A DNA stretch of 34,281 nucleotides from Tissierellia bacterium. Lineage in GTDB: Bacteria > Bacillota > Clostridia > Tissierellales > Sedimentibacteraceae. The position numbers and the translations under genes are program-made. The notes under the pieces were generated by a model. It had not been told where the DNA came from. It did not search any database and worked only from the letters and a program-made list of their open reading frames with translations. Below, piece after piece: positions 1 through 30,674 of this stretch. The stretch lies in NCBI GenBank assembly GCA_012520455.1, contig JAAYOE010000068.1, forward strand, positions 1-34,281, read 5' to 3'. Numbering within the stretch: the first letter of the stretch is position 1; every line of letters begins with the position of its first letter.

Positions 1-3000
1 AAACTTTCGGATATTTTTGCTTTTGATATGCCGGGAATCGATAACTTAGTAAATAAGGCAGTTGAAATTACGGCTGCTAATGCTGACCCTGAAATATTTT
101 TATCATTTGATGCTGCTTTAAGTGAAGCATTAAATGTTTTTTATGAAAAACAAATTAAAGATATAATAAAAATTGACAAGGAAAAAGCAGCTTCTCTTTT
201 TTCCCGGGCGGAAGTCCATAGTGCAGTCTATAAGGTCTACCGGTCCTTATTATCATACGGGAAGGGCCTGAATAAAACCTTGTATTCCATAATTGACCCG
301 GCATTTGAAAGGAGTCTCAAAAAATACATCAAAGATAATCTGCCTTATATCAGCGAACATTTAGTAGGCTATGTTCAAAAAAACAGCAGACAGATTGACA
401 GGATTATTGAAGATTCCATTGACCAGGTCCTTAATGAGGCGGAAGGTTTAAGGGCAAAGCTCCTTAAAAGCTTTAAAAACGCTTATTTTGACAATTTAAG
501 TAAAAAATACGGCATTGTTGACAAGATTATTTCATATATCAAACAGTTTGCAGGGTCGGAAAAACTGAGCATCCAAATAAGCAATAAAATTATTGAGGGC
601 TTGGATACCATAACCATAAGTGAAATAGTTACAGCGGTTGAAAGCAACTTCAATATTGACAGGGGGTATGACATCCTTAAAGATTACATGAATAAAAATG
701 GTGCCGTAATTATTGAAAGCCTTGAAAATTACTTTGGAAAACTTAAAGTAAAAGATATTTTGCCAAGGTTTGACTTGACCGTGGAAAAAGTATTGTCATC
801 CGGGACCGTGAGGGAATTTTTGAAAAACAAATCAAGACACTACTTAGAATCAGTCATGTCCAAGGAGCTTAAAATCCTGTTAGGCGAAGACAATTTGGAT
901 GCATATGTAAAAAAAGCCTCTGATTATTTGAAAGAAAAGTACTGGGCAGAAGGTAGTTCAATCAAAACCTATATTAGAGAGAAAATAGGCAGTTTAGATA
1001 TAGAAGGAAACCGATTAAAAAGCAAGGAATTAACCGGCCTTATTCACAAGGGGGCCTATGCTAAGTATAAAAATGAAGCTCTAAAGCTAAGAGACCTTAA
1101 CCTGTCCTTAGCCCTGGATAAATTAAATTCCATAGAAAACATAACAGAAAACAGTTCAGAAACCATTCGAAGGTATACCATAAACAATTCGGATATTATT
1201 TTGAAGGGGTCCGTCAAGGGGATCGTTTCTGACAACCTGAATAAGCTCACCGATGATGAGCTGGTTGGCTTTGCCAATGATTTTATAGGAAGGGAATTAA
1301 AGCCCATAATGTTTTTCGGCGGAGTATTGGGGGTTATTGCAGGCCTCATATTGGCCGGGGTTCAGAATTCTCCCCTCGACCCTTCCGAGATAAATTTTGC
1401 AAACATGGCAACCTATGCCTTTGTAGGCTTTATTACAAATGTAATAGCCATAAATATGATATTCAAGCCCTATAAAGAAATAAAAATGTTTTCTGAAATC
1501 CCCTTCCTGCGGAATTTTTCATTAGGCTACATCGTTAAAAACCAGAAAAATTTTGCAAAATCCACGGCCTATTACATCGATACCAACCTATTGAGCAAAA
1601 AAAGCATAAATGAATTGTTTGAGAGGCATAAGGATAAGATCAAGGATGGCTTTATAGAAAGCATTGCTGAAGATGACTTTGCCGCCCTCGGCAGCCTGCT
1701 GATGAAAAATCGAGAAGGAATAATTAGGGGAACCTTTAATTTTCTAAGACATACCGCTTTGAAAAACTTAAGTGCCTTGAGTAATTACCTGTATGAAATG
1801 ATTTCAAGGGCAAAGCTTTCGTCCCTCCTTAGTGACAAAAGTATAGAAAATTTGAGCAATTTTATTGGTGGAAGCATAAAAACCGATGATATAAGCAAGG
1901 GACTTTATTCAGCAATTAGGTCCGAAAAAAAATTGAAGAGTATTTTTTCAATGAGGTTTATCAATGAGCTTTTAAGAGATAAAGCCGGCAAATTATATGA
2001 TGGAATAATCAATTTTATGAAGCCGTCCGTCATAAAAGCTCAAATTATTAAGTATGAAGATAAGTATATAAAGAAAACCGACAAAACCATCGAAGAAGTA
2101 TTCAATGAAAATGATGTGTCCCGTTTTTCCGAAAAGATAAATGAAGCCGTGTTTTCGGAGGCTTTTAAAAATAATGTTTCATCGGCAGTCATCGCCACCT
2201 TTAACAAATTATTTGAGAGGGATAAAACCTTTGAAGAATTGTTCGACGGCAGAATAAAGGCCTATATAGACAGGAACCTGCCTCAAATCCTCAATAAGGC
2301 ATTACAAATAATCAAGGACAATCTTGCAGAAAACAAGGCAGTTGTTTCCGCATCCCTGCGAGCAGAATTTAAAGCAAGCTTAGGCTTTATTGAGGGCGGA
2401 TTTTATGCCTTTGTGGACGGCGATAAGCTTATTGATGATTTGGTTGGCAAAATAATGACCGAAAAACTGCCTGTCTTCATGCAAGTGAAAAAACATGAAA
2501 TAAATGAAATTATGTCTGACTTTATCAATAACAGGTTTTATAAGGCTAGGGTCGAAGTCTTATATACGGGTTTGAACAAGCTGCAAATAAATGAAGTGAT
2601 TGAAAGGTATTTATCTGCAAACAAGGAAAAGCTGAAATCTAAAATAGACTATTTGCTTTTGGAACTTTACAATAAAACAAAAGGCAGGAAATTAAATGAC
2701 ACATTAGACTTATTTAACCTGAAGGACCCCGGAAGCTTCATCAAGTCTTATGAATCTGAAATAAATGCATTTTCTGATACCTTGTATTCTTATTTAACTG
2801 ACAATAAAGATAAAACAAAAGAGGATATTTTTTCTTTCGCAAGCTCTGCAGCAGCTGAATTCATGGATTTAAGATTCGGTGATATTTTCTTCAATTTTAC
2901 TCGGGATGACATATACGGGATAGGAAAGAATATAAGTCATATACTTGATAAAGATGACGGCATAAAGAAAGTATTCGAATTTTTGATAAAAGAATACAGA

Positions 3001-3501
3001 AAATACAATAAAGACATTTGTTTGGATCATTATATTAACAGGGATGAATTCAAATGTTCTGCTCAAATGTTCGTTCAAAAGCTCTTAATCAATTATGAAG
3101 CCGAAAAGGAGCTTAAGCAAATCCTCAATACCATATTTGACTCGGCTGTGAACTGTAATTTTAATTTCATCGATTCAAGGTCTAAGGAATACACCGTTAA
3201 TATATTTGCGGAATCAAGCATCGAGGCACTGAAAAGAAACATGGATGATATTCTGAAGACGGTTGAATTTGACAAAATTGCAGAGGAAGAAATCGAAAAA
3301 ATGGAACCAGAAAAAATCCACCAAATGTTTAATTCTTTTGCAGGAAAGTATTTCAGGGCTTTAATGCTTTATGGAATAGGGGGATTCGTGTTCGGAATAA
3401 ACATGTACGTGGGATTTTCCCTGACAGGGTTAAAAATACTTTCTGAAACACTTAATAAGAGAGTCTTCGCTGATGCTCAGAATGACACGAAGGGCCGCTG
3501 A
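1..3501 (+). CDS. DUF445 family (YheB-like) large membrane-associated protein, 5' end truncated by window edge
   Basis: The ORF is open in frame from base 1 (KLSDIFAFD precedes the listed Met at 28). It contains the glycine-rich TM segment FGGVLGVIAGLILAG...YAFVGFITNVIAINMIFKPYKEI typical of DUF445, embedded in very long helical regions, and a C-terminal TM. Confidence 0.75.
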   Translation, partial: KLSDIFAFDMPGIDNLVNKAVEITAANADPEIFLSFDAALSEALNVFYEKQIKDIIKIDKEKAASLFSRAEVHSAVYKVYRSLLSYGKGLNKTLYSIIDPAFERSLKKYIKDNLPYISEHLVGYVQKNSRQIDRIIEDSIDQVLNEAEGLRAKLLKSFKNAYFDNLSKKYGIVDKIISYIKQFAGSEKLSIQISNKIIEGLDTITISEIVTAVESNFNIDRGYDILKDYMNKNGAVIIESLENYFGKLKVKDILPRFDLTVEKVLSSGTVREFLKNKSRHYLESVMSKELKILLGEDNLDAYVKKASDYLKEKYWAEGSSIKTYIREKIGSLDIEGNRLKSKELTGLIHKGAYAKYKNEALKLRDLNLSLALDKLNSIENITENSSETIRRYTINNSDIILKGSVKGIVSDNLNKLTDDELVGFANDFIGRELKPIMFFGGVLGVIAGLILAGVQNSPLDPSEINFANMATYAFVGFITNVIAINMIFKPYKEIKMFSEIPFLRNFSLGYIVKNQKNFAKSTAYYIDTNLLSKKSINELFERHKDKIKDGFIESIAEDDFAALGSLLMKNREGIIRGTFNFLRHTALKNLSALSNYLYEMISRAKLSSLLSDKSIENLSNFIGGSIKTDDISKGLYSAIRSEKKLKSIFSMRFINELLRDKAGKLYDGIINFMKPSVIKAQIIKYEDKYIKKTDKTIEEVFNENDVSRFSEKINEAVFSEAFKNNVSSAVIATFNKLFERDKTFEELFDGRIKAYIDRNLPQILNKALQIIKDNLAENKAVVSASLRAEFKASLGFIEGGFYAFVDGDKLIDDLVGKIMTEKLPVFMQVKKHEINEIMSDFINNRFYKARVEVLYTGLNKLQINEVIERYLSANKEKLKSKIDYLLLELYNKTKGRKLNDTLDLFNLKDPGSFIKSYESEINAFSDTLYSYLTDNKDKTKEDIFSFASSAAAEFMDLRFGDIFFNFTRDDIYGIGKNISHILDKDDGIKKVFEFLIKEYRKYNKDICLDHYINRDEFKCSAQMFVQKLLINYEAEKELKQILNTIFDSAVNCNFNFIDSRSKEYTVNIFAESSIEALKRNMDDILKTVEFDKIAEEEIEKMEPEKIHQMFNSFAGKYFRALMLYGIGGFVFGINMYVGFSLTGLKILSETLNKRVFADAQNDTKGR

Positions 3502-3520
3502 TAAGCGGCCCTTACATATT
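3490..3520 (+). terminator. Hairpin overlapping the stop codon of the DUF445 gene
   Basis: Perfect 10-bp stem AAGGGCCGCT (3490-3499)/AGCGGCCCTT (3504-3513) with GATA loop; only a weak T-rich tail. Confidence 0.5.
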
Positions 3521-3562
3521 TTCGTCATTGAAATGAATACACTTAAGTGTCAATACCCCCTA

Positions 3563-3625
3563 GTGTCATCCTGAGGGCTTTAGCCCGAAGGATCTCATAA
3601 GATCCTTCGCTTCGCTCAGGATGAC
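3563..3625. repeat. Palindromic intergenic repeat, family 1 (copy A)
   Basis: GTCATCCTGAGGGCTTTAGCCCGAAGGATCTCATAAGATCCTTCGCTTCGCTCAGGATGAC; termini are inverted complements and the core is shared with copies at 14454, 16771, 20531, 31907 and 34092. Confidence 0.8.
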
Positions 3626-3627
3626 TA

Positions 3628-3654
3628 AGAACGAAAAGAACCGTCCCTAAAATT
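3628..3654. repeat. GAACGAAAAGAACCGTCCC repeat, family 2 (copy 1)
   Basis: AAGAACGAAAAGAACCGTCCCTAAAATT matches copies at 9762-9786 (inverted) and 9820-9844 (direct). Confidence 0.75.
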
Positions 3655-4882
3655 CGGCGGACTCGGAAGTTTGGGGAGAGGTTGCGATGCTTCCAAAAAT
3701 GTTTGATTTATCAAACATGAGTTTGCTTATATTGTAAGCAACCAATAATTGATAACGTCCTATTTCAGCCTGGGCTAAACCTGCATTGGCTTCTAAAACA
3801 TCAAGGTTAGTAGCCATTCCGTTATCGTAGAGGAGCTGGTTTATCCTTGCTGCCTCTTTAGCCAGTTCAAGGGTTTTTTCCATGTTAATTAGGGCTCTTT
3901 CTGCTTTTATCAAGTTCAAGTATGATTTTCTAACGTCCAATTCAATATCCTTGTAGGCCTGGGGTACATTTAACTCCGCATCCTTGAGCTTTTCCTTTGC
4001 TGCCTTGTGCTGTCTTAAGTTTGATGTGTAGTAAGCAGTGTAAGCATGGGTTTCTATTTTTTGAAGCTCTAAGTTGTTTTCAGCTGTAAGTATTTCAGGT
4101 CTTTCTGCTTTTGCTTGTTCGATTGCTTCAGTTAAATTTATTTCTTCCGTCGGTACATATGTAAATTCTTTATCTGTCAGTGTCAGTTTTGTATCAAATG
4201 GAAGCTGCAATTTGTTCAACAGATTTAATTCGGCTATATTGTAATCATCCATTGCAGAATCAAGTTCCGTCTTAGCCTTTTGAACAGCCATTTCAGCATT
4301 TAGAACTTCCGCCTTTGTTGCAGACCCGTTATTGAATTTTAAATTAACGACTCGCAGCTGTTCTTCTGCCTTGCTCAAGTTTATCTTGTTGATTTCAATT
4401 GACTTTTCCGCCAAAAGCACATTGTAATATAGTGACTTTGTTTCTATTTCAATGCCTGCCAAAAGCACTTCCCTGCTTTTTTCCAATTGTTCCTGCTGGG
4501 TATCGGCATAAATAATATAATAATTATTTTTAGCCAATATTCTTTCAACCTGATTGCTTGTTACATCAAATTCAGGACCAAATACTGCTTGAATTTCAGG
4601 CAGGGACATGCCCATAATCAACTCTGCCAGGTCCTTCGCATTTTTTGCATCTTTTCTTGCCTCTTTAACCTGAGCGATTGCGTCATCTATTTTCCACATT
4701 TCCCTGCTGTTTTCTGTTGCTATTCTCACCGCATCCTCCATGGACAGCATCATGGGCTCCGCTTCTTCCATAGTTTCAACCGATGTTACCTGGACTTCAA
4801 CAGCGTCTTCTGCTGCAGCCACGTTTGTAAATGTGCCTAACACCAGCAACAGCAGTATTAGTAAAGATATTATTCTTTTCAT
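3647..4882 (-). CDS. TolC family protein (outer-membrane-efflux-protein-like)
   Basis: 411 aa with N-terminal signal peptide, long coiled-coil repeats and AEQLRVVNLKFNNGSATKAEVLNAEMAVQKAKTELDSA / RINQLLYDNGMATNLDVLEANAGLAQAE, the duplicated TolC/OEP motif; last gene of the RND operon. Confidence 0.85.
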   Translation of the reverse strand: MKRIISLLILLLLVLGTFTNVAAAEDAVEVQVTSVETMEEAEPMMLSMEDAVRIATENSREMWKIDDAIAQVKEARKDAKNAKDLAELIMGMSLPEIQAVFGPEFDVTSNQVERILAKNNYYIIYADTQQEQLEKSREVLLAGIEIETKSLYYNVLLAEKSIEINKINLSKAEEQLRVVNLKFNNGSATKAEVLNAEMAVQKAKTELDSAMDDYNIAELNLLNKLQLPFDTKLTLTDKEFTYVPTEEINLTEAIEQAKAERPEILTAENNLELQKIETHAYTAYYTSNLRQHKAAKEKLKDAELNVPQAYKDIELDVRKSYLNLIKAERALINMEKTLELAKEAARINQLLYDNGMATNLDVLEANAGLAQAEIGRYQLLVAYNISKLMFDKSNIFGSIATSPQTSESAEF

Positions 4883-4900
4883 TTTTTCCTCCCTTGTTGG

Positions 4901-5473
4901 TTATTTTACGGCAAAACCCTTGTACAATAAATCAAAGATTATATCATCTTCCTTAATCACATCTTCCTTATTATGGGACTTTAATCTTATATATTGACCC
5001 ATGGTGCCAATAAGGATGCATGCAATTATTTCGGATTGTATGTCACTTATAACCACGCCTTCTTCCTTGCCCCGGTCAATGATACCGCATATCAATTCAT
5101 ACATTTCAAACATTTTTCCGATTATGGCCTTGATAGCATCTTCCGATATAATGTTTTTACTTGACAAGACATCGTCTAAGGTAATGTCTGATTCCATCTT
5201 AAGGTTTTCGTTGAATAAAATCAATAATTTATTGTGAAAGGTATCTTTTAAATCAGAAATACATTTTATTTTATTTACTATTTCATTTACATATTCAATG
5301 CAGGTTTCATCGAATATGTCTTGTTTGCTTTCAAAGTATTCATACAGGGTTCCTTTTCCGACACCTGCACCTGCTGCAATATCCTCCATTTTTGTATTGT
5401 GAAACCCCTTATCCCTGAATAAAACCATGGCTGACTTCAATATATCCCGGCGTTTTTGATTTTTTTCTTCCAT
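4901..5473 (-). CDS. TetR/AcrR family transcriptional regulator
   Basis: 190 aa; N-terminal HTH RRDILKSAMVLFRDKGFHNTKMEDIAAGAGVGKGTLYEYFESKQDIF is classic TetR_N. Confidence 0.93.
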   Translation of the reverse strand: MEEKNQKRRDILKSAMVLFRDKGFHNTKMEDIAAGAGVGKGTLYEYFESKQDIFDETCIEYVNEIVNKIKCISDLKDTFHNKLLILFNENLKMESDITLDDVLSSKNIISEDAIKAIIGKMFEMYELICGIIDRGKEEGVVISDIQSEIIACILIGTMGQYIRLKSHNKEDVIKEDDIIFDLLYKGFAVK

Positions 5474-5489
5474 GATACCTCCCTTGCTC

Positions 5490-8400
5490 CTACTCCGTTA
5501 TCTCCCTAATTGCTTCTCTTTTAATCTTTCTTTTGAAAAATTCCGAAATGTCATCAAATATAGTATACATAACAGGAATTATTACCAATGTTAAGACTGT
5601 TGAAAGGGACAAGCCTCCGATCACAACAACACCCATGGATTGGGAAAGTTCAGCCCCTTCCCCTATACCCGAGGACATGGGCAGTAAGCCTAAGATGGTG
5701 GTCAGGGCGGTCATCATAATCGGCCGTATTCTTATGGGGCCTGCCTTCATGATTGCAGCATCCCTATCTTCTCCTCTTCCCCGCCTCTTGTTGATATAAT
5801 CCACCAACACTATGGCATTATTAACGACAATTCCTACCAGGATTATCAAGCCTATTATTCCTATTACGTTGAGAGGAAGGCCTGTGACAAACAATCCTAT
5901 AAAGCCTCCGGACAGGGCCAGGGGGACGGAAAACATGATTGACAAGGGCTGGATCAAGGATTCAAACTGGGCTGCTATTATCATATAAACCAAGGCAACT
6001 GCCAACAGCATTACCAAAAACAGGTCCGTAAAGGTTTCTTCTATCTGTTCTACTTCTCCTCCAAATTTGTAGGTGTAGCCGAAGGGCATTTCATAATCAT
6101 TCAAAAGGTCCTCTATTTCTTGGGAAGCAGATTGAATATCTCTTCCCACAACACTCCCTGATACGGTTAAAACTCTGACCTGGTTTTCCCTCTGTATACT
6201 TATGGGTCCTTTTTCGACTCTTATACGGGCAACTTCCGACAGGGGTACGGTGGTTCCCATGGGAGTTTCAACCGGGAGCATTTCCAAATATGATATGCTT
6301 TCTCCGTAAATATTATCTCCCTTTAACACAACATCTATTTCATCCCCGTTAACCTTAAACTTTGTAACATTTGACCCGGACATGGCATTTGTTATGGAAC
6401 TTCCGATTTGTGCGGTTGTTAATCCGTATTGGGATGCAATGTTCCTGTCGGTTATTACTTGAACTTGGGGAATTCCGTCCTCGTAGCTTGTGGTAACTTC
6501 TCTCGTTCCTTCAACCCTTTCAATTATCTTCTTAAAATCGTCCCCGATAGTTTTCAAGGTATCTATATCATCACCCTTAATACTGATACTTATGGCTCCG
6601 GTGGCCATGCCCATCATCATTGTTGAGGATTCCGCAACACTTATCTCCGCTCCGGGTATATCCTTTGTCAGTGCCCTTATTTCATCGCTTATTTCTTTTG
6701 CGCTCCTGTCTCTTTCATCCAGGTTCTTTAACAGAACAACCACAGAACCGGTGGAAGAACTCCCCATACCGTACATTTGGCCGCCTCCCGCTGAGGTAAA
6801 TACTGTTTCGATTTCAGGTATTCCAGCTATTGCATCTTCAATTTCTTCAAGCATTGCATCTATTTCCTCCGTTTCGGAGCCTGCCGGCAAATCAGCGCTT
6901 ATATTAATCATACCTTCATCGGTGGCAGGGAAAAATTCCGCTCCTACGGATATTACCATTAATATGCTTACAACAAATAGTCCTATACTTGCCAGTATTG
7001 TAATTAAACGGTGCCTTAAACTAAAACTTAATACTTTTTTATAAAAAACGACCAAGGGTCCTTGTCTTTTCTCCTGTGCCTCTTCAGATTCCAAATTCTT
7101 TACTGAAACCAACTTTGATGACAGCATGGGAACTAATGTTAAGGCGATAAGCAATGAACTCAATAAAGCAATTGTTATTGTAAGTGCAAATTCTTTAAAC
7201 AAAATTGCAGCAAGTCCGCCTGTGAACACAATGGGAATAAATACTGCAATGGTGGTCAAGGTGGAAGCTGTAATTGCCATTGAAACTTCATTTGTTCCGT
7301 CAACCGATGCAATGACCCTGTCTAACCCTAAGCTTCTGTTTCTGTATATGTTTTCAAGAACAACAATGGAGTTGTCCACCAGCATCCCCACTGCCAGGGC
7401 AAAGGCTCCAAGAGTCATCATATTTAAGGTTATGCCGGAGAAAAACATTATTACAAATGTGGTTATTACCGAAAAAGGTATTGAAACAGCTATAACCAAG
7501 GTGGTTTTAAAGCTTCTTAGGAAAACCAAAAGTATGATTATTGCTAAAATACCGCCCTTTGCTGCAGTGCTGATTAAGTTTTTAATGGCTAAATTAATAT
7601 AATCTGCCTGGTTAAACACGGTTACTAATTCTAAATCAGGGTATTCAGTTTTTAATTTTTCGATTTCTTTATCTATTGCATTGGCAACATTGACGGTATT
7701 GGCATCGGATTGCTTCATTATGGATATCTGAACAACTTCCTTGCCGTTTAATTTGGTTATTGAAGCTTGTTCCTTGCTTTTTAAACTTACGTCGGCTATA
7801 TCTTTAAGCCTTATGGTCCCCCCCCTAGTTAAAGGTATGGGCAGATTTCTAATTTCTTCGATGGATTTGAATTCACCCATTGTCCTTACCGTAAGTTCGT
7901 TGTTCCCTTTTTTTACCGTCCCTCCGGGCATATTTAAATTTTCGGCTCTAAGTATCTGGCCAACATAAGAAGAGCTTAAATTGTAACCTTTAATCACTTC
8001 TTCTTTCAACATTATTTCGACTTCCTGGTCCAGCCCTCCCGTTACCGTAGCGGAAGCAGTGCCTTCTAATCGCTCGAATCGAGGTGATATTACATCCTCT
8101 GCTATCTTTTGAGTGGTATAAAGGTCTCCCTTGCTTGAAACTGCCAGTTGAACTATGGGAATGGCATTAGGGTCCAGTTTTAAGGCTAAGGGTGAAGATG
8201 TCCCCTCAGGCAAAAAGCCTTTGATGATATCAATTCTTTCCCTTACCTGAAGCATTATTTCATCCATATCGGTGTTAAAGGCGAACTGCATCAACAAGAG
8301 TGAAGATCCTTCACTGGAAATTGAAATAATATCTTCTATGTTTTCAACCGTGGACAGGGTTTGCTCCAAGGGAATCGATATGATGTTTTCAATTTCTTCT

Positions 8401-8564
8401 GGCCCTGCTCCCTGATAGGTTGTTTGAACCATTACATATGGCAGGTCCATTTGTGGAAGCAAGTCAATCTGGAGCTTGCTTAAGGATACTGCCCCTATAA
8501 CAATCACTATTAATATCATCATGGTGATTGTAACGGGTTTTTTAACCGAAAATTTTGCAAGCAT
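5490..8564 (-). CDS. Efflux RND transporter permease (AcrB/HAE1-like)
   Basis: 1024 aa; FSVKKPVTITMMILIVIVIGAVSLSKLQIDLLPQMDLPYVMVQTTYQGAGPEEIE, GMLVDNSIVVLENIYR, VGIVVNNAIVLVDYIN, RIRPIMMTALTTILGLLPM are RND signatures. Confidence 0.95.
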   Translation of the reverse strand: MLAKFSVKKPVTITMMILIVIVIGAVSLSKLQIDLLPQMDLPYVMVQTTYQGAGPEEIENIISIPLEQTLSTVENIEDIISISSEGSSLLLMQFAFNTDMDEIMLQVRERIDIIKGFLPEGTSSPLALKLDPNAIPIVQLAVSSKGDLYTTQKIAEDVISPRFERLEGTASATVTGGLDQEVEIMLKEEVIKGYNLSSSYVGQILRAENLNMPGGTVKKGNNELTVRTMGEFKSIEEIRNLPIPLTRGGTIRLKDIADVSLKSKEQASITKLNGKEVVQISIMKQSDANTVNVANAIDKEIEKLKTEYPDLELVTVFNQADYINLAIKNLISTAAKGGILAIIILLVFLRSFKTTLVIAVSIPFSVITTFVIMFFSGITLNMMTLGAFALAVGMLVDNSIVVLENIYRNRSLGLDRVIASVDGTNEVSMAITASTLTTIAVFIPIVFTGGLAAILFKEFALTITIALLSSLLIALTLVPMLSSKLVSVKNLESEEAQEKRQGPLVVFYKKVLSFSLRHRLITILASIGLFVVSILMVISVGAEFFPATDEGMINISADLPAGSETEEIDAMLEEIEDAIAGIPEIETVFTSAGGGQMYGMGSSSTGSVVVLLKNLDERDRSAKEISDEIRALTKDIPGAEISVAESSTMMMGMATGAISISIKGDDIDTLKTIGDDFKKIIERVEGTREVTTSYEDGIPQVQVITDRNIASQYGLTTAQIGSSITNAMSGSNVTKFKVNGDEIDVVLKGDNIYGESISYLEMLPVETPMGTTVPLSEVARIRVEKGPISIQRENQVRVLTVSGSVVGRDIQSASQEIEDLLNDYEMPFGYTYKFGGEVEQIEETFTDLFLVMLLAVALVYMIIAAQFESLIQPLSIMFSVPLALSGGFIGLFVTGLPLNVIGIIGLIILVGIVVNNAIVLVDYINKRRGRGEDRDAAIMKAGPIRIRPIMMTALTTILGLLPMSSGIGEGAELSQSMGVVVIGGLSLSTVLTLVIIPVMYTIFDDISEFFKRKIKREAIREITE

Positions 8565-8566
8565 TC

Positions 8567-9673
8567 CTATTCACCCCTTACAACCTTTATTTTGCTGCCA
8601 TGGCTTATGTAATCCTGGCCTTTCACAATAACCTTATCCCCCTCCGAAAGACCTGACTTTATTTCAATATAAGCTCCGGTATCAAGGCCTGTAGTAACTT
8701 CTTTTTGGAGGGCTGCATCACCCTCTGCAACAAAGACAAATTGTTTGCCGTCGCGCTCTTTAACGGCTTCAGCCCTCACGGCAAGGGCATTGCCAATATT
8801 GTCGGTCTTCAAATAAACCTTGGCAAACATACCCGGTTTAATTGTACCGTCATTTTCAAGTACAATACTTACGGTATAAAGATTTGTCATAATATCTGCA
8901 GATGAGCTTACACTGTTTATCACGGCTTCATTTTTATAGCCTGCTGAACTTATTTCAACAAGAGCCTTATCCCCGGCTTTCACCTTGTTGACAAGACTTG
9001 CGGCTATTCCAAACTCAACGGTTACACTGTTTGAATCAACAATTGTCACAGGCGGATTGGCAGATGATGCATATTCACCTTCAACAATGTTGACACTTGA
9101 AACCACCCCTGATATGGGTGCCTTTACTTCAGCATTTTTAAGCATGGATGCTGCGTTGGAATAGGCTACCTTGGCCTGTTCCACACCCATCCTTGCCGCC
9201 TCCAAAGCCTCATCGGAAGCGGCTAATTTTGCCTGTTCATACTGGGTTTCCGGAACGGCTCCTTCCTCGTAGAGTTTTTTAATGCGCTCAAGGTTATCCT
9301 TGGCGGTTTGTATTTGAGCAGAGGTCACTTCAAAGCCGGCCCTTGCCGCCTCGTAAGCAGCATAAGCTTGGTTGACCTGCTTTTGGATATCCTCCTTATC
9401 CATGACAAAAAGCACATGGTCCTTTTCTACCCTGTCGCCGACTTTTACGTTAACTTTTTCTGCCTTTCCCGCTACTAAAGGGATTACAAAAACATCCTTA
9501 TCCGCAAATACTTTTCCGGTCATAAGGTTTTCTATGTATAGCTCCATAGGCTGAAGAATTTCCACTTCCACTGCCGTATAAGCCTCTTCTTCATCTGCCT
9601 TTGTTTCCTGGCCTGCAGTACAGCCTGTGAAAATAAATGCAGTAATTAATAATAATGTCAATATTCTTCTCAA
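8567..9673 (-). CDS. Efflux RND transporter periplasmic-adaptor-type lipoprotein (HlyD/MFP family)
   Basis: 368 aa with lipobox (ITAFIFTGC), biotinyl-lipoyl-like VIPLVAGKAEKVNVKVGDRVEKDHVLFVMD and coiled-coil hairpin; 2 bp upstream of the RND gene. Confidence 0.92.
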   Translation of the reverse strand: MRRILTLLLITAFIFTGCTAGQETKADEEEAYTAVEVEILQPMELYIENLMTGKVFADKDVFVIPLVAGKAEKVNVKVGDRVEKDHVLFVMDKEDIQKQVNQAYAAYEAARAGFEVTSAQIQTAKDNLERIKKLYEEGAVPETQYEQAKLAASDEALEAARMGVEQAKVAYSNAASMLKNAEVKAPISGVVSSVNIVEGEYASSANPPVTIVDSNSVTVEFGIAASLVNKVKAGDKALVEISSAGYKNEAVINSVSSSADIMTNLYTVSIVLENDGTIKPGMFAKVYLKTDNIGNALAVRAEAVKERDGKQFVFVAEGDAALQKEVTTGLDTGAYIEIKSGLSEGDKVIVKGQDYISHGSKIKVVRGE

Positions 9674-11365: not shown

Positions 11366-11600
11366 AAATAAACCGCCTCTTAAACCAAGAGGCGGATTTC
11401 CGCGGTACCACTCTAATTACTGTCAATAGAATCATCCGTCGACAGTTCTCGTTTATATAAGGGGGGGACCCTTTGAGTTGCCACACTCAAATACTCCAAG
11501 GCGGGTTCAAAATACATAGGGCCGAAAATCTTCCACCGGTGATTTTCTCTCTATAGGCCGTGTATATCTACTATTCCTCTTCACAGTAACTATTAATTTG
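11366..11600 (-). promoter_or_regulatory. T-box riboswitch leader of proS
   Basis: Reverse strand contains the T-box AGAGTGGTACCGCGG (11400-11414) followed by terminator CCGCCTCTT-GGTTT-AAGAGGCGG (11373-11395) and T-rich tail; upstream stem I region with GAACCCGCC near the expected specifier (a Pro CCN codon is possible, exact codon not assigned). Confidence 0.92.
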
Positions 11601-22511: not shown

Positions 22512-23696
22512 TTGAAGGACATGCTTTTAAAGGAGATATATCACTTGAAGCCTAATAAAAATATATTCTTGATATTTACTTTATTTTACATATATTTTAT
22601 AATAGCACTTTTTGAAAGCTCCAGAGGCAACTTTGTTCCCTTTTTCTTGGAAGAATTCCGCATAAATAATGCCCAAATGAGCTTAGTGCTGACATTTAAC
22701 ACGATAGGCGCCATAATAGGAAGCTTTTTCGCCGGACACCTATGTGAAAAATACGGACATAAGTTTGTTTTTTTCTTAGGGGCTTTGATTTCAACCGGGG
22801 CTGTATTAATTGCTCCCTTTGCTTCCAATATATTTTTGCTGGTACTGTTTAATTTTTTGTTTGGAGCGGGAAGGCAGTTATGGGCGGTTTCCATTGACTC
22901 GGTCATCCCTGTCCTGTCTGTGGGTTTTGAATCCATTTTAATGAATTTAACCCATTTCATGTACGGCCTGGGAAGCCTGACCGGCCAGAGCCTGTATGGG
23001 TCTCTCTTAGAATATGGACTGCATTGGAGAAAAATCTATCTATATCTGGGTGTTTTCTTTGTTGCATCTGCAGTCCTCACCTTGCTTGTAAAGGTGCCGG
23101 GAATTACAATCAGTGTCAACAGGGAGGAAAAAAGGAGAGAATTGTTCAAGAATCCCTTGGTTTACCTCTTTGTAGGAGCCGTCACATTTTCATTCTTGGG
23201 CGAAGCCGTTATATACACATGGTTTATCAGCTACATGAGGATTTCCTATGGTTTTAATCCTGCCCTGGCTGCAAAATATGCCGGCGTATATTATTTGTTG
23301 TTCGCCCTGGGCAGGCTTGCGGGAGGTTTCATACTTAACAAAACAGGCAACGTAAAAGGTCTCAAGCTTTATTTGTTGTCGGGTGCTTTTTGCATATTAA
23401 CCGGTCTTTTGCTGAGGGATAAGGGGCTCATGATAATAGCCGGGTCAGGATTCTTTGTATCCGTTGTTTTCCCCACCCTTATGGTTGTTACTAATGCTGT
23501 GTTCAAAGAATCCGCTTCATTTGCTATCGGAATGATAACAACATTAGGCAATATTTTGTTTGTGGTCTTCTTTAACATCACCGGTGTCCTCAATGACTTG
23601 GCAGGAACTTATGCGGCATTTTTCATTGCACCTGCTTCTTTTATCATATGCTACGGGATTATGGCAATGATAGATAAAAGAACTGCAAAGTCGTAA
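22512..23696 (+). CDS. MFS transporter
   Basis: 394 aa, about 12 hydrophobic segments; NTIGAIIGSFFAGHLCEKYGHKFVFFLGALISTGAVLIAPFASN typical MFS N-half. Confidence 0.88.
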   Translation: MKDMLLKEIYHLKPNKNIFLIFTLFYIYFIIALFESSRGNFVPFFLEEFRINNAQMSLVLTFNTIGAIIGSFFAGHLCEKYGHKFVFFLGALISTGAVLIAPFASNIFLLVLFNFLFGAGRQLWAVSIDSVIPVLSVGFESILMNLTHFMYGLGSLTGQSLYGSLLEYGLHWRKIYLYLGVFFVASAVLTLLVKVPGITISVNREEKRRELFKNPLVYLFVGAVTFSFLGEAVIYTWFISYMRISYGFNPALAAKYAGVYYLLFALGRLAGGFILNKTGNVKGLKLYLLSGAFCILTGLLLRDKGLMIIAGSGFFVSVVFPTLMVVTNAVFKESASFAIGMITTLGNILFVVFFNITGVLNDLAGTYAAFFIAPASFIICYGIMAMIDKRTAKS

Positions 23697-23712
23697 TAAA
23701 AAAGTCGTAATA

Positions 23713-23736
23713 AAGAGGTATGTGCCCATACCTCTT
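23713..23736. terminator. Bidirectional terminator-like hairpin between convergent genes
   Basis: AAGAGGTATG-TGCC-CATACCTCTT; it overlaps the 3' end of the minus-strand gene by 2 bp. Confidence 0.65.
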
Positions 23737-24400
23737 ATACATGCAGCCTTCTTTTTATCTCCGCTATAAGCCTTTTATCCTCAAAAATTATTATTGTTGC
23801 CAGTGAAATGACACTTATGGATATACATATGATCGAAGGATACAAAACATCCAACAAACCGGTTATGATGAAAATTATGGGGACTATCCCAAACAAGCCG
23901 TCAATTATTATGTAAAGTATGTAGTCTTCTATGTAGAGTTTTATGATTTTTGAAATAAGGGCCATGGATATCATTGCAGCCACACACACCAAGGGAATCA
24001 CATAGTTAATGGACCAGCCCTTCCAACCGGTCAGAAAATCCCATAATAAGACTGTGACGGATATGGTCATTACCTGGTATACTATGTTTTTGGGTATGTT
24101 TTTACGTTTGTTAATAAGGTTGATGAGACTTGCCCAGGCTGAACCAAGCCCTCCCAATACAAACAAGGACCAAGCCCCCCTGCCGGGCAGGAGAATATTT
24201 AGGGCAAGGGATACAGTGGCAACTATTATTGATATTAAAAGCATTATCTTCAAAAACCAGGAATGCTCCCTATATACAAAGGAGATCTTTGGAAAAACTT
24301 CATCCTGGTACTCATCCCCACTAAGCCTATCCTGACACAAGGGACAGAGCTTTCTTTTTCCAACCACGCTGACCTTACAGCTTTTGCAATATTTCATCAC
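23735..24400 (-). CDS. Zinc-ribbon multi-TM membrane protein (resembles DUF6320)
   Basis: 221 aa; N-terminal YCKSCKVSVVGKRKLCPLCQDRL zinc ribbon followed by 6 or so TM helices; overlaps the upstream gene stop (GTGA). Confidence 0.7.
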   Translation of the reverse strand: MMKYCKSCKVSVVGKRKLCPLCQDRLSGDEYQDEVFPKISFVYREHSWFLKIMLLISIIVATVSLALNILLPGRGAWSLFVLGGLGSAWASLINLINKRKNIPKNIVYQVMTISVTVLLWDFLTGWKGWSINYVIPLVCVAAMISMALISKIIKLYIEDYILYIIIDGLFGIVPIIFIITGLLDVLYPSIICISISVISLATIIIFEDKRLIAEIKRRLHV

Positions 24401-25680
24401 AAGGCCTCCTCTTCTTCATCGACCATATTGGACTCGATTACAACAGAGATTCCCATATCGGTTAAGGTCCTAAAAAATCTTCTTTGAATTTCGGTACTGA
24501 CAAAGGCAGAAGTGAAACTGATTCTCAGCTTATTCTCATAAGTGCATAAACAAGCCTGGAGCTTGTCGGTGCTTACAAATACGTCAAACGACCTGATATA
24601 AGGCTTTATTTCATCAGGCATGTTCACTATTCCCACGTTGGACAAGGTTGAAGTATGGTTTTTAGCGGCAATTATATATGCAATTCTCAGTGCTAAATTC
24701 TTTATAACCAATGGAATGACCCTCAAAAAATAATTGTGCTCTAAGGAGGCCAGCTTGTTGATTCTCCTTGCCAAAACTTCCGGGGTTAAATTATCCTTGA
24801 ATTTTTTCTTCAAAACCTCAATTACATCTATTAAGTCACCGGTCCCCTTTGAAAAATCATAATCAACATTTATGACTCCGTAAAAATTACGGGCTGTCTG
24901 GGAGGAGAAGTAATTCCTTAAATTCACCGGAATGCTTAATACAACGGGTTTTCTTTTCAATCTTGCGGGAATTTCTTCGTTTATGGCGCACATTAAAACC
25001 GCAGCCAAAAATATTGTCAAGGATGCTTTGTATTCTTTAACCTTAGGCAGTATTTCATCAATGGGAATCACCCCTTCTATTACACTGAAACGGTATTCGG
25101 GTATTTTGGCCCCCCTTAGCTTATAAGCCTTCACAGCCTTCTTTTTGGAAAGAATGCTTTCTTCCTTAAAGTATTTTTGAAAGCTGTCATCCAACTTCTG
25201 AGTTTTGGAGGCATCAATATCCAAGACGGGAGCCTTGTCTTTAAAAGCATCCTTGTATTTTATGGTTATGTAGTGAAAAACCAAAGTCCTTAAAAATTGA
25301 AGGGCTCCTGCCCCGTCGGCCAAAGCATGGTAAACTTCAAGGCTTATCCGCTTCCTGTAATACATAACCCGGAAGAGGAGGGTTTTATGGTTTTTATCAT
25401 ACAAGGTGGAACAGGGAGGAAGGTTTTCTTCGGTTACAAGGGCCTTAAACCTGCTTTTTTCAAAATAATACCAAAAAAGACCGGACTTCATTACCGACCG
25501 GTAGAGGGGGAAGGCTTCCAGGCTTATATCAAGTGCCTCTTGTAGGACCTTTGGGTCTACCGGATCAAATAATTCGCATGAAAACCTGAATACCTTGGTA
25601 TCGCTTTTTTTGCTGTTGGCAGGAAATATTTTAGCCGCATTATCCAATTTGCTCCATTCGGATATTTTTTTATTTTTCAA
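24397..25680 (-). CDS. Condensation-domain-like / alcohol acetyltransferase-like acyltransferase
   Basis: 427 aa; ISLEVYHALADGAGALQFLRTLVFHY matches the H-x3-DG motif; VVLSIPVNLRNYFSSQTARNFYGVINVDYDFS; TTG start codon immediately after the upstream stop. Confidence 0.78.
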   Translation of the reverse strand: MKNKKISEWSKLDNAAKIFPANSKKSDTKVFRFSCELFDPVDPKVLQEALDISLEAFPLYRSVMKSGLFWYYFEKSRFKALVTEENLPPCSTLYDKNHKTLLFRVMYYRKRISLEVYHALADGAGALQFLRTLVFHYITIKYKDAFKDKAPVLDIDASKTQKLDDSFQKYFKEESILSKKKAVKAYKLRGAKIPEYRFSVIEGVIPIDEILPKVKEYKASLTIFLAAVLMCAINEEIPARLKRKPVVLSIPVNLRNYFSSQTARNFYGVINVDYDFSKGTGDLIDVIEVLKKKFKDNLTPEVLARRINKLASLEHNYFLRVIPLVIKNLALRIAYIIAAKNHTSTLSNVGIVNMPDEIKPYIRSFDVFVSTDKLQACLCTYENKLRISFTSAFVSTEIQRRFFRTLTDMGISVVIESNMVDEEEEAL

Positions 25681-26598
25681 CTAATTCACCTCATAAATGA
25701 AACGATTGATTATGTCATAACACAATTTAACCTGAGGAAACCTAGGGGGTAAGGAAAAAAATCCGTGAAGGCCATCCTTAATCCTGTATATTTCAACATG
25801 ATTTCCGGCTTCCCTGAGCTTTTTGCCGTATTCTTCCCCCTCGTCCCGCAAGGGGTCATATTCTGCCGTTATGATTAGGGTCTTAGGCTGCATTGTCAAG
25901 TCATGAGCAAGCAAGGGTGCAAAGTAAGGGCTGTAGAAATCTTCTTCCTTTGAGATGTACAAGTCCATGTAATCTCTTATTCTCTTTGTAGTAAGCAAGT
26001 AATCCCTTCCATTTTCCTCAATAGATCTAAAGGGCGAATTCTCGGTATGGTCATTGTAGGTTGACGGATAAATCAAGATTTGCTTGTCAACCTTGAATTC
26101 TTTTCTATCCCTTGCCAGCAGGGATACGGCCGCCGCTAAATTTCCTCCGGCACTGTCCCCGATTAATATTACTTCTTTATCATTGATTACCTTATTTGCA
26201 ATAAATACTTTGGCTGCTTCATAGCAGTCTTCCAGGCCTGCGGGAAAGGGGTTTTCCGGTGCCAGCCTGTAATCCACAGACACCACCTTGGAATTTGTAA
26301 GCTTAGCCATGTTTGTACAAACCTTGTTATAGGTATCGATGTTACCGGTCACCCAGCCGCCCCCGTGGAAAAACAAAAGCACAGGGTTGGCTCCATGGAC
26401 CTGGGGAGAGAATACACGAACAGGAATATTGTGATTTTTTGACCCTATTTTAAAGTCCCATGTTTTGAACAAGGGTTTTAAAATATGTTTTCTTGTTAAA
26501 TTTACAAAACTCCTGTACATCTGCAAGTTTTCTTTTATATCATATTCAGTGTAGGACAGGGCTTTAAGAGCCGCTCTCACAACCTTGTTAATAGCCAT
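25681..26598 (-). CDS. Alpha/beta hydrolase (HSL-type esterase/lipase)
   Basis: 305 aa; VLLFFHGGGWVTGNIDTYN (HGGGW oxyanion hole), SVDYRLAPENPFPAGLEDCYEA, LIGDSAGGNLAAAVSLLARD (GDSAGG), YDPLRDEGE, HGFF. Confidence 0.93.
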   Translation of the reverse strand: MAINKVVRAALKALSYTEYDIKENLQMYRSFVNLTRKHILKPLFKTWDFKIGSKNHNIPVRVFSPQVHGANPVLLFFHGGGWVTGNIDTYNKVCTNMAKLTNSKVVSVDYRLAPENPFPAGLEDCYEAAKVFIANKVINDKEVILIGDSAGGNLAAAVSLLARDRKEFKVDKQILIYPSTYNDHTENSPFRSIEENGRDYLLTTKRIRDYMDLYISKEEDFYSPYFAPLLAHDLTMQPKTLIITAEYDPLRDEGEEYGKKLREAGNHVEIYRIKDGLHGFFSLPPRFPQVKLCYDIINRFIYEVN

Positions 26599-26655: not shown

Positions 26656-26745
26656 CAAATTCTTGAGAAAGGATGACACTACCCCCGTCCCCTTGTCATC
26701 CAAATTCTTGAGAAAGGATGACACTACCCCCGTCCCCTTGTCATC
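26656..26745. repeat. Perfect tandem duplication of a 45-bp palindrome-containing unit
   Basis: CAAATTCTTGAGAAAGGATGACACTACCCCCGTCCCCTTGTCATC twice (26656-26700, 26701-26745); GATGACA...TGTCATC inverted within each unit. Confidence 0.92.
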
Positions 26746-26758
26746 AAAATTATATTTA

Positions 26759-26820: not shown

Positions 26821-26979
26821 ATGCAAAAATACGTTTGTGATGTATGCGGTTACGTTTATGATCCTGCTGAGGGGGATCCGGACAACGGCATAGCTCCCGG
26901 CACATCTTTTGAAGCCCTTCCGGATGACTGGGTATGCCCCTTGTGTGGAGCCGGAAAGGACGAATTTTCACCTGAATAA
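26821..26979 (+). CDS. Rubredoxin (52 aa; absent from the supplied ORF track because of size)
   Basis: Translation [52 protein letters not shown]; two CxxC motifs (CDVCGY, CPLCGA). Confidence 0.97.
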
Positions 26980-27034: not shown

Positions 27035-27520
27035 TTACTCACCTGTTGAAGCGGAGATGGAGGCGGTTTTATCGCTTACGGTATAGGATGCCATAATGCC
27101 TATGCCTTCTTCATTTTTTCCGGTATAGGCTATGGTGTCTGCACTCTTAGCCTCATAAGATTCCTTGTCAAATTCCCCTTTAAGCTTATTGTAATAATCC
27201 ATGAAATCATCTGCTTCGACATCTTCGATGATTACCAGCATATATGCTTCACTATTCATCACGCTTACAATATTCCCTTTTTTAAACTCCGGAATCTTAG
27301 CGGACAGTTGAGAATCGGGCCATTCCGTGGAACCAAAGGTGACATCGCCTTCTTCGGACTTAATGGTTATTTCATCTCCGTCTATATCGATGTCTGCCCC
27401 GCCGATTGCTTGTTCTATGATTTTTTCGGCGATTTTTTCCTCCATTTTTTGTTTTGCTCCACAAGCAGTGAGTAAGGTTAACAAAGTGATAATTATTAAA
27501 ATATAAGAAATTTTTTTCAT
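27035..27520 (-). CDS. Hypothetical lipoprotein
   Basis: Met at 27520 gives MKKISYILIIITLLTLLTACGAKQ lipoprotein signal; no confident family. ORF track start 27598 adds an unlikely N-terminal extension. Confidence 0.75.
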   Translation of the reverse strand: MKKISYILIIITLLTLLTACGAKQKMEEKIAEKIIEQAIGGADIDIDGDEITIKSEEGDVTFGSTEWPDSQLSAKIPEFKKGNIVSVMNSEAYMLVIIEDVEADDFMDYYNKLKGEFDKESYEAKSADTIAYTGKNEEGIGIMASYTVSDKTASISASTGE

Positions 27521-27641
27521 AGTCCTACCCCCTTGGATTTTAATATTATTATATATTACCGTATAATAATTGCTATCACCCTGAGGGTGATATTTCAAAA
27601 AAAACCAGGATGAACTTAGGGTTATTTGTCGGGATTTCTAC

Positions 27642-27670
27642 TTGGAACCGGTATGTATTTATGATATAAT
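27642..27670 (+). promoter_or_regulatory. Promoter of the SBP/LuxR module
   Basis: TTGGAA (27642-27647), 17 bp, TATAAT (27665-27670), 30 bp before ATG 27700. Confidence 0.65.
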
Positions 27671-27699
27671 AAGTAAAATCGTTTTTATGGAGTCTGGTT

Positions 27700-29070
27700 A
27701 TGAAAAGGATCATCCTGTCCCTATTGATAATTGCCTTGGTCTTATCGGGCTGCCAAACCAATGAACCCCTTAGCGGAAAAAACGCCGTGACAATCAACTT
27801 ATGGCATAATTACGGCGGCTTGATGAAAGATACCATGGATACCCTCATAGACGAATTCAATGAAACGGTGGGAAGAAATGAAGGCATTATCATAAATGTT
27901 ACATCAATAACCGGGTCTGCGACAATTCATGAAAAATTGAAAATGGCCGTCAACGATGAACCCGGGGCACCTGACCTGCCTGATATTACTACCTTGTACC
28001 CCAATACTGCACTGATGCTGGCTGAAAAAGGCCTCTTGGCAGACCTTGAATCGCATTTTTCCAAGGAAGACTTGTCCTTATATATTTCTGAATTTGTTGA
28101 AGAAGGAAGGCTTCCCGACGGGAAACTCTATGTCCTGCCGATAGGTAAATCCACCGAGGTTATGTTTTTAAACACTTCAATATTCAACAGGTTTATGAAG
28201 GATGCCGATGTAAGTTACAATGATTTATACACATTTGAAGGAATTCTTGACATTGCCGAAAAGTATTATGAATGGACTGATAATCAAACTCCCAATATTG
28301 AAAACGATGGCAAGGCTTTCATAAATTATGATTCTGTCTTTAATATGGCTCAAGCCATATACAAGCAGTCAAAGGAAGACTTGATTGTCGATGGAAGCTT
28401 AAACTTAAACTCCCCTGCCTTTAAAGACCTTTGGAAGAATTATTTTGAGCCGGCCGTCAAAGGCTATGTTTCCATATATGACGGGTATGGGTCAGACCTT
28501 ATTAAGACCGGCACCGTTGCGGCAAATATCGGCTCAACCGCAGGAGTCCTCTTCTACTCGGACATTGTTACATATGAAGATAATACTACCGAACCGGCCG
28601 AGTTTTTGATTCTTCCTTACCCTGTTATTGAAAGGGGAGAAAAAATTGCAATTCAACGAGGGGGCGGCATGTGCATCATAAAATCTGACAGAGCAAAAGA
28701 AAATGCGGCCGGAATATTTCTTAAATGGTTTACATCCCCGGAGCAAAATTTGAAATTTGTATCATCGACAGGATATCTTCCGGTAACCGAAAAGGCAGTC
28801 GAATTGACAAATGATGACGGAAGCGACCCGGAAGACAAAATGAGAAGTCTTGAGAATACTACGAAAGAGATGGCTGAAAATTTTAACTTTTTTTACACTC
28901 CGGTAATTGATAATTTTGATGAGTTAGAAGACAGTTTCAATAGCAGTTTGAAGGATACGGCATTGGTTTGCAGAAATGAGTATTTGAATTTATTGGATGA
29001 CATGGATGAATATGATGCATTTATCAAGGCGACCGAAAACAAATTTGAAGAATTTATCAGGCAGAGGTGA
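27700..29070 (+). CDS. Extracellular solute-binding lipoprotein (ABC sugar-type SBP family 1), without adjacent permease
   Basis: 456 aa; lipobox LVLSGCQTN; VTINLWHNYGGLMKDTMDTLIDEFNE, LPDGKLYVLPIGKSTEVMFLNTSIF, GGGMCIIKSDRAKENAAGIFLKWFTSPEQNLKFVSSTGYLPV typical of SBP_bac_1. Confidence 0.88.
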   Translation: MKRIILSLLIIALVLSGCQTNEPLSGKNAVTINLWHNYGGLMKDTMDTLIDEFNETVGRNEGIIINVTSITGSATIHEKLKMAVNDEPGAPDLPDITTLYPNTALMLAEKGLLADLESHFSKEDLSLYISEFVEEGRLPDGKLYVLPIGKSTEVMFLNTSIFNRFMKDADVSYNDLYTFEGILDIAEKYYEWTDNQTPNIENDGKAFINYDSVFNMAQAIYKQSKEDLIVDGSLNLNSPAFKDLWKNYFEPAVKGYVSIYDGYGSDLIKTGTVAANIGSTAGVLFYSDIVTYEDNTTEPAEFLILPYPVIERGEKIAIQRGGGMCIIKSDRAKENAAGIFLKWFTSPEQNLKFVSSTGYLPVTEKAVELTNDDGSDPEDKMRSLENTTKEMAENFNFFYTPVIDNFDELEDSFNSSLKDTALVCRNEYLNLLDDMDEYDAFIKATENKFEEFIRQR

Positions 29071-30641
29071 TAAGCTTGGCTGTTAGAGACAGAATTAAAT
29101 ATACCCTGCGGCTGAGACTGTTTTTGTTTTTGATAATTCTTGTAATTACCATATTATCGGGTATTTTGATTATTCTTTTTGTATCCGGAAACATTACGGC
29201 AGGCTTAAAGAAAAGTGAAGAGTTTATACTCAACGAGCATGCTAAAATTGTGAAGAATACAGACGGACTCTATGATAATTTGGCAGCCGAAGCCGTAAGT
29301 TTTTCCCGCACTCTTTCCCTTAGGATTGAAAGCTTTATGAGGGAAGAAGATTTAAAAATCAGCGACTTCAATGACAATCCGGCTCTTTTGAATGAGCTTT
29401 TATCAGGTCAGCTTCACCAGATAATCCTCTACCTGCAAAAATCAAAAAGCAGCGGGGCCTTTATCATCTTGGATGCAACATCAAACACCAGGCTTCCGGG
29501 TTCGGAATATTCGAAAGCGGGGGTATATCTGACAAATATGGAGCCGAATATAATAAGCTCCTCCAGCCCGACAATTTATGTATTGAGAGGTAATGCAGAC
29601 CTTGCATATAAGAATTTCCTGCCCCTCCACCCCCAGTGGAGGATGGAATTCAACACGGCAGATGCCCCTTATTTTAGTCTGCCTATGGATAAGGCCCGTG
29701 AGAACACATCTCTATCAAACCTTTATTATTGGAGCGAAGCTTTTACCTTTCCAAAAACCAACGATAGAATAATGATATGCTCCGTACCTTTGATTGACAG
29801 TGAGGGAAATGTTTTTGGGGTGTGCGGTTTTGATGTGTCTTACATGCTTTTTAAACTCTTGAACACACCTGACACCACCATGTATAAGAGGATTTTTTGT
29901 TTGTTATCACCTGTTGAAGACAATATGTTAAAGGTTGACCATTCCTTGTTCTCGGGAGGCTATTCAACAAGAAGCTTTATTGATGATAGAGATTTGCATT
30001 TTTCCGCCGGGAAAAAATCCCTCTTTACATATGAAAATAATGAACATACCTTTATAGGCTACCATGAATTATTGAAGCTCTACCCGGAAAACTCAGCCTT
30101 TGCCGATAATGAATGGGCCTTGGCTTTAATGGTTCCCCAGGAGGACATAAACTCTTATGTGGTCAAGACAAATCTGAAATTCATCTACTTAAGCTCATTA
30201 ATCATGGTACTTGGAATTATTGTATCCTTTGTCTTGAGCAAATTTTACATCATGCCAATTTCAAGAGGAATCGAGATAATTAAAAATAATCCGAAAAACA
30301 TAAGAAAAACCAATATTGCTGAAATCGATGAATTAATAGAATTCCTGTCAGACAGGCCCGAAAGTGAAACCACCGACCCCAATTCAATAATTCTTAACGA
30401 GTTTTTGAACAACATCAAAACCCTGACTCCTGCAGAGAGGTCTGTTTTCAATTTGTATGCCCAGCAGTACACAGCCAAGGAAATTGCGGAAAGCTTATAC
30501 TTGAGCATCAATACGATTAAAACCCATACCAAGCACTTATATTCCAAATTAAACATTACTTCAAAGGAAGAACTTATCCTTTACGTAGAAATGTTAAAAG
30601 AATCCGGAAAAGATATTAGTAAAGTATTGAATAAACAATGA
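29067..30641 (+). CDS. Transmembrane one-component regulator: extracellular Cache-like sensor domain plus cytoplasmic LuxR-type HTH
   Basis: 524 aa; TM1 LFLFLIILVITILSGILIILFV, about 300-aa extracellular region, TM2 FIYLSSLIMVLGIIVSFVLSKFYIMPISRGI, C-terminal LTPAERSVFNLYAQQYTAKEIAESLYLSINTIKTHTKHLYSKLNI (GerE/LuxR HTH). 4-bp overlap with the SBP gene. Confidence 0.85.
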   Translation: MISLAVRDRIKYTLRLRLFLFLIILVITILSGILIILFVSGNITAGLKKSEEFILNEHAKIVKNTDGLYDNLAAEAVSFSRTLSLRIESFMREEDLKISDFNDNPALLNELLSGQLHQIILYLQKSKSSGAFIILDATSNTRLPGSEYSKAGVYLTNMEPNIISSSSPTIYVLRGNADLAYKNFLPLHPQWRMEFNTADAPYFSLPMDKARENTSLSNLYYWSEAFTFPKTNDRIMICSVPLIDSEGNVFGVCGFDVSYMLFKLLNTPDTTMYKRIFCLLSPVEDNMLKVDHSLFSGGYSTRSFIDDRDLHFSAGKKSLFTYENNEHTFIGYHELLKLYPENSAFADNEWALALMVPQEDINSYVVKTNLKFIYLSSLIMVLGIIVSFVLSKFYIMPISRGIEIIKNNPKNIRKTNIAEIDELIEFLSDRPESETTDPNSIILNEFLNNIKTLTPAERSVFNLYAQQYTAKEIAESLYLSINTIKTHTKHLYSKLNITSKEELILYVEMLKESGKDISKVLNKQ

Positions 30642-30674
30642 TACCCTTGCCGCTTATCAAAGCAACAAGGGTAT
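30641..30674. terminator. Hairpin between the LuxR-like gene and mnmA (convergent)
   Basis: ATACCCTTG (30641-30649)/CAAGGGTAT (30666-30674). Confidence 0.6.

Follow-up and report, generated by a model that had tools for sequence, protein, structure and literature searches.

A candidate SBP-fed membrane regulator

The window (the whole 34,281-nucleotide stretch of DNA analysed here) encodes a solute-binding protein (SBP) of the lipoprotein type, paired with a membrane-spanning regulator carrying a LuxR helix-turn-helix (HTH), and we consider it likely, with a probability of roughly 0.8, that the two constitute an SBP-fed transmembrane one-component activator of an envelope regulon. The contact between SBP and sensor, the ligand, the DNA binding and the sign of regulation are inferred in this reading; the pair itself, its topology, the candidate operator and its position, the predicted regulon and the co-loss of regulator and sites are results of sequence analysis. 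The window is part of contig C182 in a 2.0-Mb genome of 187 contigs, and the features discussed are listed in Table 1.

Table 1. Locations of the features discussed (window positions unless another contig is named)
Feature	Position	Strand	Remarks
Divergent small lipoprotein gene, first predicted target	27035..27520	-	161 aa from ATG 27520; weak PF20234
-10 box TATAAT of the divergent lipoprotein promoter	27548..27553	-	30 nt from palindrome centre
Palindrome ATCACCCTGAGGGTGAT, candidate operator of LuxR	27575..27591	.	centre ~-42 of the divergent promoter
Degenerate half-site AGGGTTATTT, SBP side	27618..27627	+	in relatives, often two tandem GGGTGATT half-sites
Sigma-70-type promoter of the SBP-LuxR operon	27642..27670	+	TTGGAA-N17-TATAAT, extended -10 (TG)
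Orphan solute-binding lipoprotein (SBP_bac_8)	27700..29070	+	456 aa, lipobox at C18
Membrane-spanning dCache-LuxR regulator	29067..30641	+	ORF of 524 aa; start more likely TTG 29076
Extracellular sensor part, dCache fold	29190..30176	+	residues 42-370
LuxR/GerE helix-turn-helix	30414..30590	+	residues 450-508
Hairpin between convergent LuxR and mnmA genes	30641..30674	.
Sister pair, SBP lipoprotein and related sensor fused to GGDEF	own genome, C54 (L032) 1774-5013

Domain architecture and topology

The lipoprotein had originally been labelled as SBP_bac_1-type; its best Pfam match is instead SBP_bac_8 (PF13416, E = 4.8e-29). Its predicted structure (pLDDT 92) was nearest in fold to a dinucleotide-binding ABC protein, followed by oligosaccharide binders and UgpB, with glycerophosphodiester-binding proteins among the closest, and a PDB profile search with the SBP alignment returned nothing at 1e-10. 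The promoter proposed ahead of the pair was recovered and is conserved in four relatives.

Residues 21-39 and 372-390 of the regulator are hydrophobic, and from these two segments and the positive N-terminus an N-in/C-in topology with ~330 residues outside is predicted. The GerE domain (PF00196) was detected at residues 452-506 with E = 3.8e-13 and 49.3 bits, above the curated cut-off of 23.5 bits for membership in the LuxR/GerE family. This agrees with the original prediction of a protein with two transmembrane segments (TMs), a large extracellular sensor and a LuxR HTH. The Pfam match of the sensor part was weak (PF22673, E = 0.011, under the cut-off). An AlphaFold2 model built with 66 homologues in the alignment reached a pLDDT of 86, and the Foldseek search that had been suggested as a check matched the part between the two TMs to chemoreceptor ligand domains of the dCache type (best E = 7.7e-07), in keeping with the definition of a dCache sensor as a double PAS-like fold that lies outside the membrane and is flanked by two TMs. 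The protein also meets the definition of a one-component transmembrane transcription regulator (TTR), since it combines a DNA-binding domain and TM helices in one polypeptide with no receiver or kinase domain.

Two details of the operon were only partly upheld. The proposed 4-bp overlap between the SBP and LuxR genes exists only if translation starts at GTG 29067; a start at TTG 29076, which would leave a 5-nt gap, is likelier because a Shine-Dalgarno-like AGAGGTGA extends across the SBP stop, is followed by a TTG and is kept in L082 and L084, and because the aligned start in L087 and L024 is ATG. The hairpin said to close the operon is real but lacks a good T-run on the + strand. A search against Rfam detected only a T-box, elsewhere in the window.

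A palindrome at the class-II activator position

The candidate operator, a palindrome of the form AATCACCC-N3-GGGTGATT, adjoins the pair just outside the region covered by the original prediction (27642-30641). The core TCAC-N7-GTGA was observed in 43 out of 55 regions upstream of LuxR-type loci, compared with an expectation of 0.1, and after shuffling no dyad reached more than nine regions. None of 18 regions upstream of SBP-GGDEF or SBP-kinase pairs contained the palindrome.

Most target promoters (19 of 23) have a TATAAT-like sequence beginning 30-31 nt away from the centre of the palindrome, a spacing that places this centre at approximately -42, the class-II activator position. Since TATAAT at this distance was found on 36 of 52 divergent sides and on none of 54 SBP sides, we concluded that the window palindrome serves the divergent lipoprotein gene. 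A class-II activator promoter is defined by a site centred near -42 and a -10 box at a fixed distance, and this definition is met; the classical lux box likewise occupies the class-II position (~-42). A role as control element of the SBP-LuxR promoter was rejected as the main function of the palindrome, in view of the missing -10 box at activator distance on the SBP side (0/54). Tandem GGGTGATT half-sites on that side, present in many relatives, might serve autoregulation. In L090, L102, L132, L148, L161 and other loci, direct tandem copies of GGGTGATT lie ~11 bp apart between the palindrome and the SBP start.

This geometry bears on the possibility that the LuxR protein is a repressor, or that it works after proteolytic release rather than as a membrane-bound activator. 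Proteolytic release is known for some membrane regulators, and no direct data are available here; however, a site at -42, a fixed distance to the -10 box and the absence of a -35 consensus are what is expected of an activator, and we consider this alternative unlikely.

Predicted regulon and distribution of the palindrome

The genome carrying the window contains exactly five perfect copies of ATCACCCN3GGGTGAT, with none added at one mismatch, 10 further scattered weak sites at two mismatches and no match for the reversed control. Each perfect copy is located ~60-120 bp upstream of a gene start. Apart from the copy in the window, the genes concerned encode a secreted protein with an SLH domain, a second lipoprotein (257 aa) that is related to the divergent one of the window, a helical protein of 94 aa and a regulator of the Crp type, and for each of the four a homologue adjoins LuxR in other genomes. 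In same-genus genomes, the orthologues of the SLH, lipoprotein and 94-aa genes have kept the palindrome upstream, and the divergent promoters of the orthologues of the window lipoprotein gene in L334 and L338 have the same palindrome. The divergent cluster beside LuxR recurrently contains small lipoproteins (31 of 80 loci) and DUF4870-like membrane proteins (33 loci), as well as zinc-ribbon, AIM24 and SPFH proteins; elsewhere, sites separate a lipoprotein gene from one resembling a polysaccharide flippase, or AraC-type from DUF4870 genes. Judging from these predicted targets, the most likely role of the pair is to turn on genes whose products are at the cell surface, and many unannotated lipoproteins of Clostridia would gain a regulatory context.

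We compared genomes of the class sample with and without a core LuxR, defined by a sensor match of E < 1e-110 in a LuxR-sized frame, with one Peptoniphilaceae-like genome left out. The palindrome was present in 17 out of 20 core-LuxR genomes and in 6 out of 372 others (P = 5e-22), where approximately four would be expected by chance as estimated from genome sizes; the sites in LuxR-negative genomes appear chance-like, being inside a gene in three of five fetched regions. Three core-LuxR genomes had no perfect copy. The enrichment is partly built in, since one copy belongs to the pair itself, although many copies are on other contigs. Many of the sampled genomes are metagenome-assembled with split contigs, and apparent off-locus sites in L280 and L286 were left out of the counts as probably representing the pair locus itself. 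Within the family, all 10 genomes with the SBP and/or LuxR carry one to six palindromes, as does 1 of 17 others; the exception, G003, has one palindrome and only a LuxR fragment, which is situated between the same neighbours (esterase and mnmA).

The LuxR gene has decayed to fragments in the same-genus genomes G003 and G015 (L029 7081-7524, L030), and nearly all operator sites have been lost there.

Binding of the palindrome by the LuxR protein of the pair is a strong inference that rests on no binding data. Crp- and AraC-type genes adjoin palindromes in some genomes and no experiment links the LuxR protein to the palindrome, so that the membrane LuxR could be real and the palindrome nonetheless be the operator of another co-inherited regulator, e.g. 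one of the Crp or AraC type. We regard this as improbable, as nothing but the SBP-LuxR pair is known to occur in every palindrome-rich genome of the family, and the palindrome adjoins the pair, is missing at the sister GGDEF pairs and is limited to the LuxR clade that has the recognition-helix pattern of the window protein. In the more diverged LuxR members (Peptoniphilaceae-like and others), neither the palindrome nor a convincing alternative dyad was found, and no such dyad was found in the GGDEF loci. At L065, L067-L072, L074-L076, L194 and L227-L230, the diverged SBP-LuxR pairs lack the palindrome and differ in the recognition helix.

Conservation of the SBP-sensor pair

A scan of GTDB genomes with an SBP profile yielded 80 independently fetched SBP loci. 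Directly downstream of the SBP, 67 had a complete sensor-LuxR gene, five a shortened sensor-LuxR gene and seven the contig end, and one was indeterminate. The reverse search from the sensor across the class agreed, with an SBP upstream at nearly all loci that had room for one, and recovered LuxR, GGDEF, GGDEF-EAL and histidine kinase outputs; the exceptions were the LuxR locus L226, which has room upstream but no SBP seen, and three weak matches that are chemoreceptors or a kinase without an SBP. Thus, the conservation of the pair foreseen in the original prediction is borne out, and the definition of an SBP-dependent sensor, in which the SBP gene is paired with a sensor gene, is met. Within the order, SBP matches of at least ~190 bits that are not at a contig end are followed by the family sensor with LuxR or GGDEF(-EAL) output. 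When all outputs are counted, the sensor profile matches ~6-12% of the sampled genomes of the phylum and class, including 23 of 399 genomes in other classes of the phylum; a plasmid tblastn search gave two distant matches to the sensor only.

L226 (G525:C71) has a core-type LuxR with a palindrome ~0.4 kb upstream and no SBP gene found between them, a possible SBP loss.

The genome carrying the window contains a paralogous pair (C54) whose SBP is 37% identical to the window SBP and whose 615-aa partner has a sensor 27% identical to that of the window and a GGDEF output. Given this paralogous pairing of an SBP with the same sensor and the conservation across the phylum, the arrangement, as far as genome comparison can tell, is more than chance. 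In relatives, the output is GGDEF-EAL or a hybrid histidine kinase.

In the SBP tree, LuxR-paired SBPs and those paired with c-di-GMP or kinase outputs are split by a branch with a support of 99. In a mirror-tree comparison, SBP distances correlated with those of the extracellular sensor at r = 0.90 (0.69-0.84 for length-matched blocks of 67 columns), with those of the HTH at r = 0.47 and with those of the neighbouring lipoprotein at r = 0.39. Joint vertical inheritance can also produce such a correlation, and distances computed from the HTH, which is short and conserved, are noisy. The correlation supports a link between the SBP and the extracellular domain without proving contact, and that the SBP touches the sensor remains a weaker inference than the binding of the palindrome by LuxR.

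No permease or ATPase gene adjoins the SBP in the window, as had been noted, and the homologues likewise lack cognate permeases: only one of 138 fetched stretches (some loci fetched twice) contained an ABC permease, 5.6 kb away, and the adjacency to permease and ATPase genes that marks ABC transporter SBPs is not met. By comparison, two weaker SBP matches inspected in the same order (L080, L081) are ABC SBPs with an ATPase and two permeases. Hence, that the SBP is an ordinary ABC component with its permease encoded elsewhere, and LuxR a local regulator whose sensor binds its own ligand without SBP contact, appears very doubtful: the SBP has the fold and family of sugar/UgpB-type ABC binding proteins, and ABC SBPs without adjacent permeases occur generally, but besides the rarity of permeases, this SBP clade is separate from same-order ABC SBPs, its members adjoin a sensor and are also paired with GGDEF and kinase outputs, and the predicted regulon comprises envelope proteins and not transport or catabolism.

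Proposed mechanism

We propose that the SBP lipoprotein, anchored at the outer face of the membrane, would bind a solute (by its fold, one resembling an oligosaccharide, a glycerophosphodiester or a dinucleotide), and that it would engage the regulator encoded in the same operon through the dCache domain of the latter. From there, the signal would cross via TM2 to the cytoplasmic LuxR HTH, which would bind AATCACCC-N3-GGGTGATT centred at -42 while in the membrane. LuxR would in this way activate promoters without a good -35 box, and its targets would be the neighbouring divergent lipoprotein gene and a small dispersed envelope set (the SLH protein, the second lipoprotein, the 94-aa helical protein and possibly the Crp-type regulator). 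The candidate operator, predicted regulon and activator geometry found here strengthen the original proposal that a one-component factor acts on DNA.

More tentatively, and at slightly less than even odds in our estimation, the system might serve envelope surveillance that is widespread in Clostridia-type bacteria: the SBP would read an extracellular or cell-wall-derived molecule, the membrane LuxR would act at -42 on conserved lipoproteins, S-layer-type proteins and membrane proteins, and the sister SBP-dCache branch would feed c-di-GMP signalling.

Comparison with known systems

On the main reading, the pair would be a new variant among SBP-fed transmembrane transcription regulators, for which CBP-ChiS is the precedent. 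In Vibrio cholerae, the periplasmic SBP CBP activates the regulator ChiS, which is embedded in the membrane and binds DNA from there (PMC11856585). The likeness is that an SBP drives a membrane-bound DNA-binding regulator, as proposed for the window pair; in the window, a dCache domain precedes a LuxR/GerE HTH as the output, the SBP gene belongs to the same operon and encodes a lipoprotein, and an envelope regulon takes the place of chitin use. ChiS has the architecture of a hybrid sensor kinase and a different DNA-binding domain.

For NspS-MbaA, an SBP gene is paired with that of a membrane sensor with c-di-GMP output (PMC9993111). This overall layout is that of the GGDEF/EAL sister pairs; MbaA, however, is a c-di-GMP enzyme rather than a transcription factor. 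NspS, a sensor of polyamines, comes from a different SBP family.

The LuxR regulators DadR, CadR and HcdR of Eggerthella lenta are activators with 10-12 TMs and an HTH tethered to the membrane (PMC9734109). The window protein does not meet the criterion of 10-12 N-terminal TM helices, as it has only two TMs, along with a dCache domain, and is partnered by an SBP. Distinct from the window regulator, a multi-helix MFS-like protein with a C-terminal LuxR HTH, resembling the 12-TM Eggerthella type, is encoded in the genome carrying the window (C63 (L003) 1099-2520).

TTRs in general combine a DNA-binding domain and TM segments in one polypeptide and use no phosphorelay, as does the window regulator (PMC10269533). 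A search of the text of the TTR survey returned no reference to LuxR/GerE, Cache domains or solute-binding proteins (PMC10269533). No description of the pair or the operator was found in the open-access literature searched, and an earlier description is not excluded, as subscription papers were mostly outside the search; for the operator half-sites, only unrelated papers were found among the matches listed. If the main reading is true, the pair would represent another well-defined design of SBP-driven receptor, one whose output is a transcription factor and that uses neither a kinase nor a second messenger. With operator, geometry and targets readable from sequence, the question of how a factor tethered to the membrane locates and activates dispersed promoters would become directly testable.

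Other features of the window

A 45-bp tandem repeat of 2.1 copies (26656-26751) was observed upstream of a small rubredoxin-like gene (26821-26979), and a row of MFS transporter, DUF6320, AATase-like and hormone-sensitive-lipase-like genes extends from 22512 to 26598, the last two of which are also found beside the LuxR remnant in G003. A T-box leader (11385-11593, - strand) is located upstream of the prolyl-tRNA synthetase gene. At 3647-9673 (- strand), the window contains an RND efflux operon with an OEP/TolC-type outer-membrane protein and a TetR regulator, which is unexpected if the host is a single-membrane bacterium of the Clostridia type.
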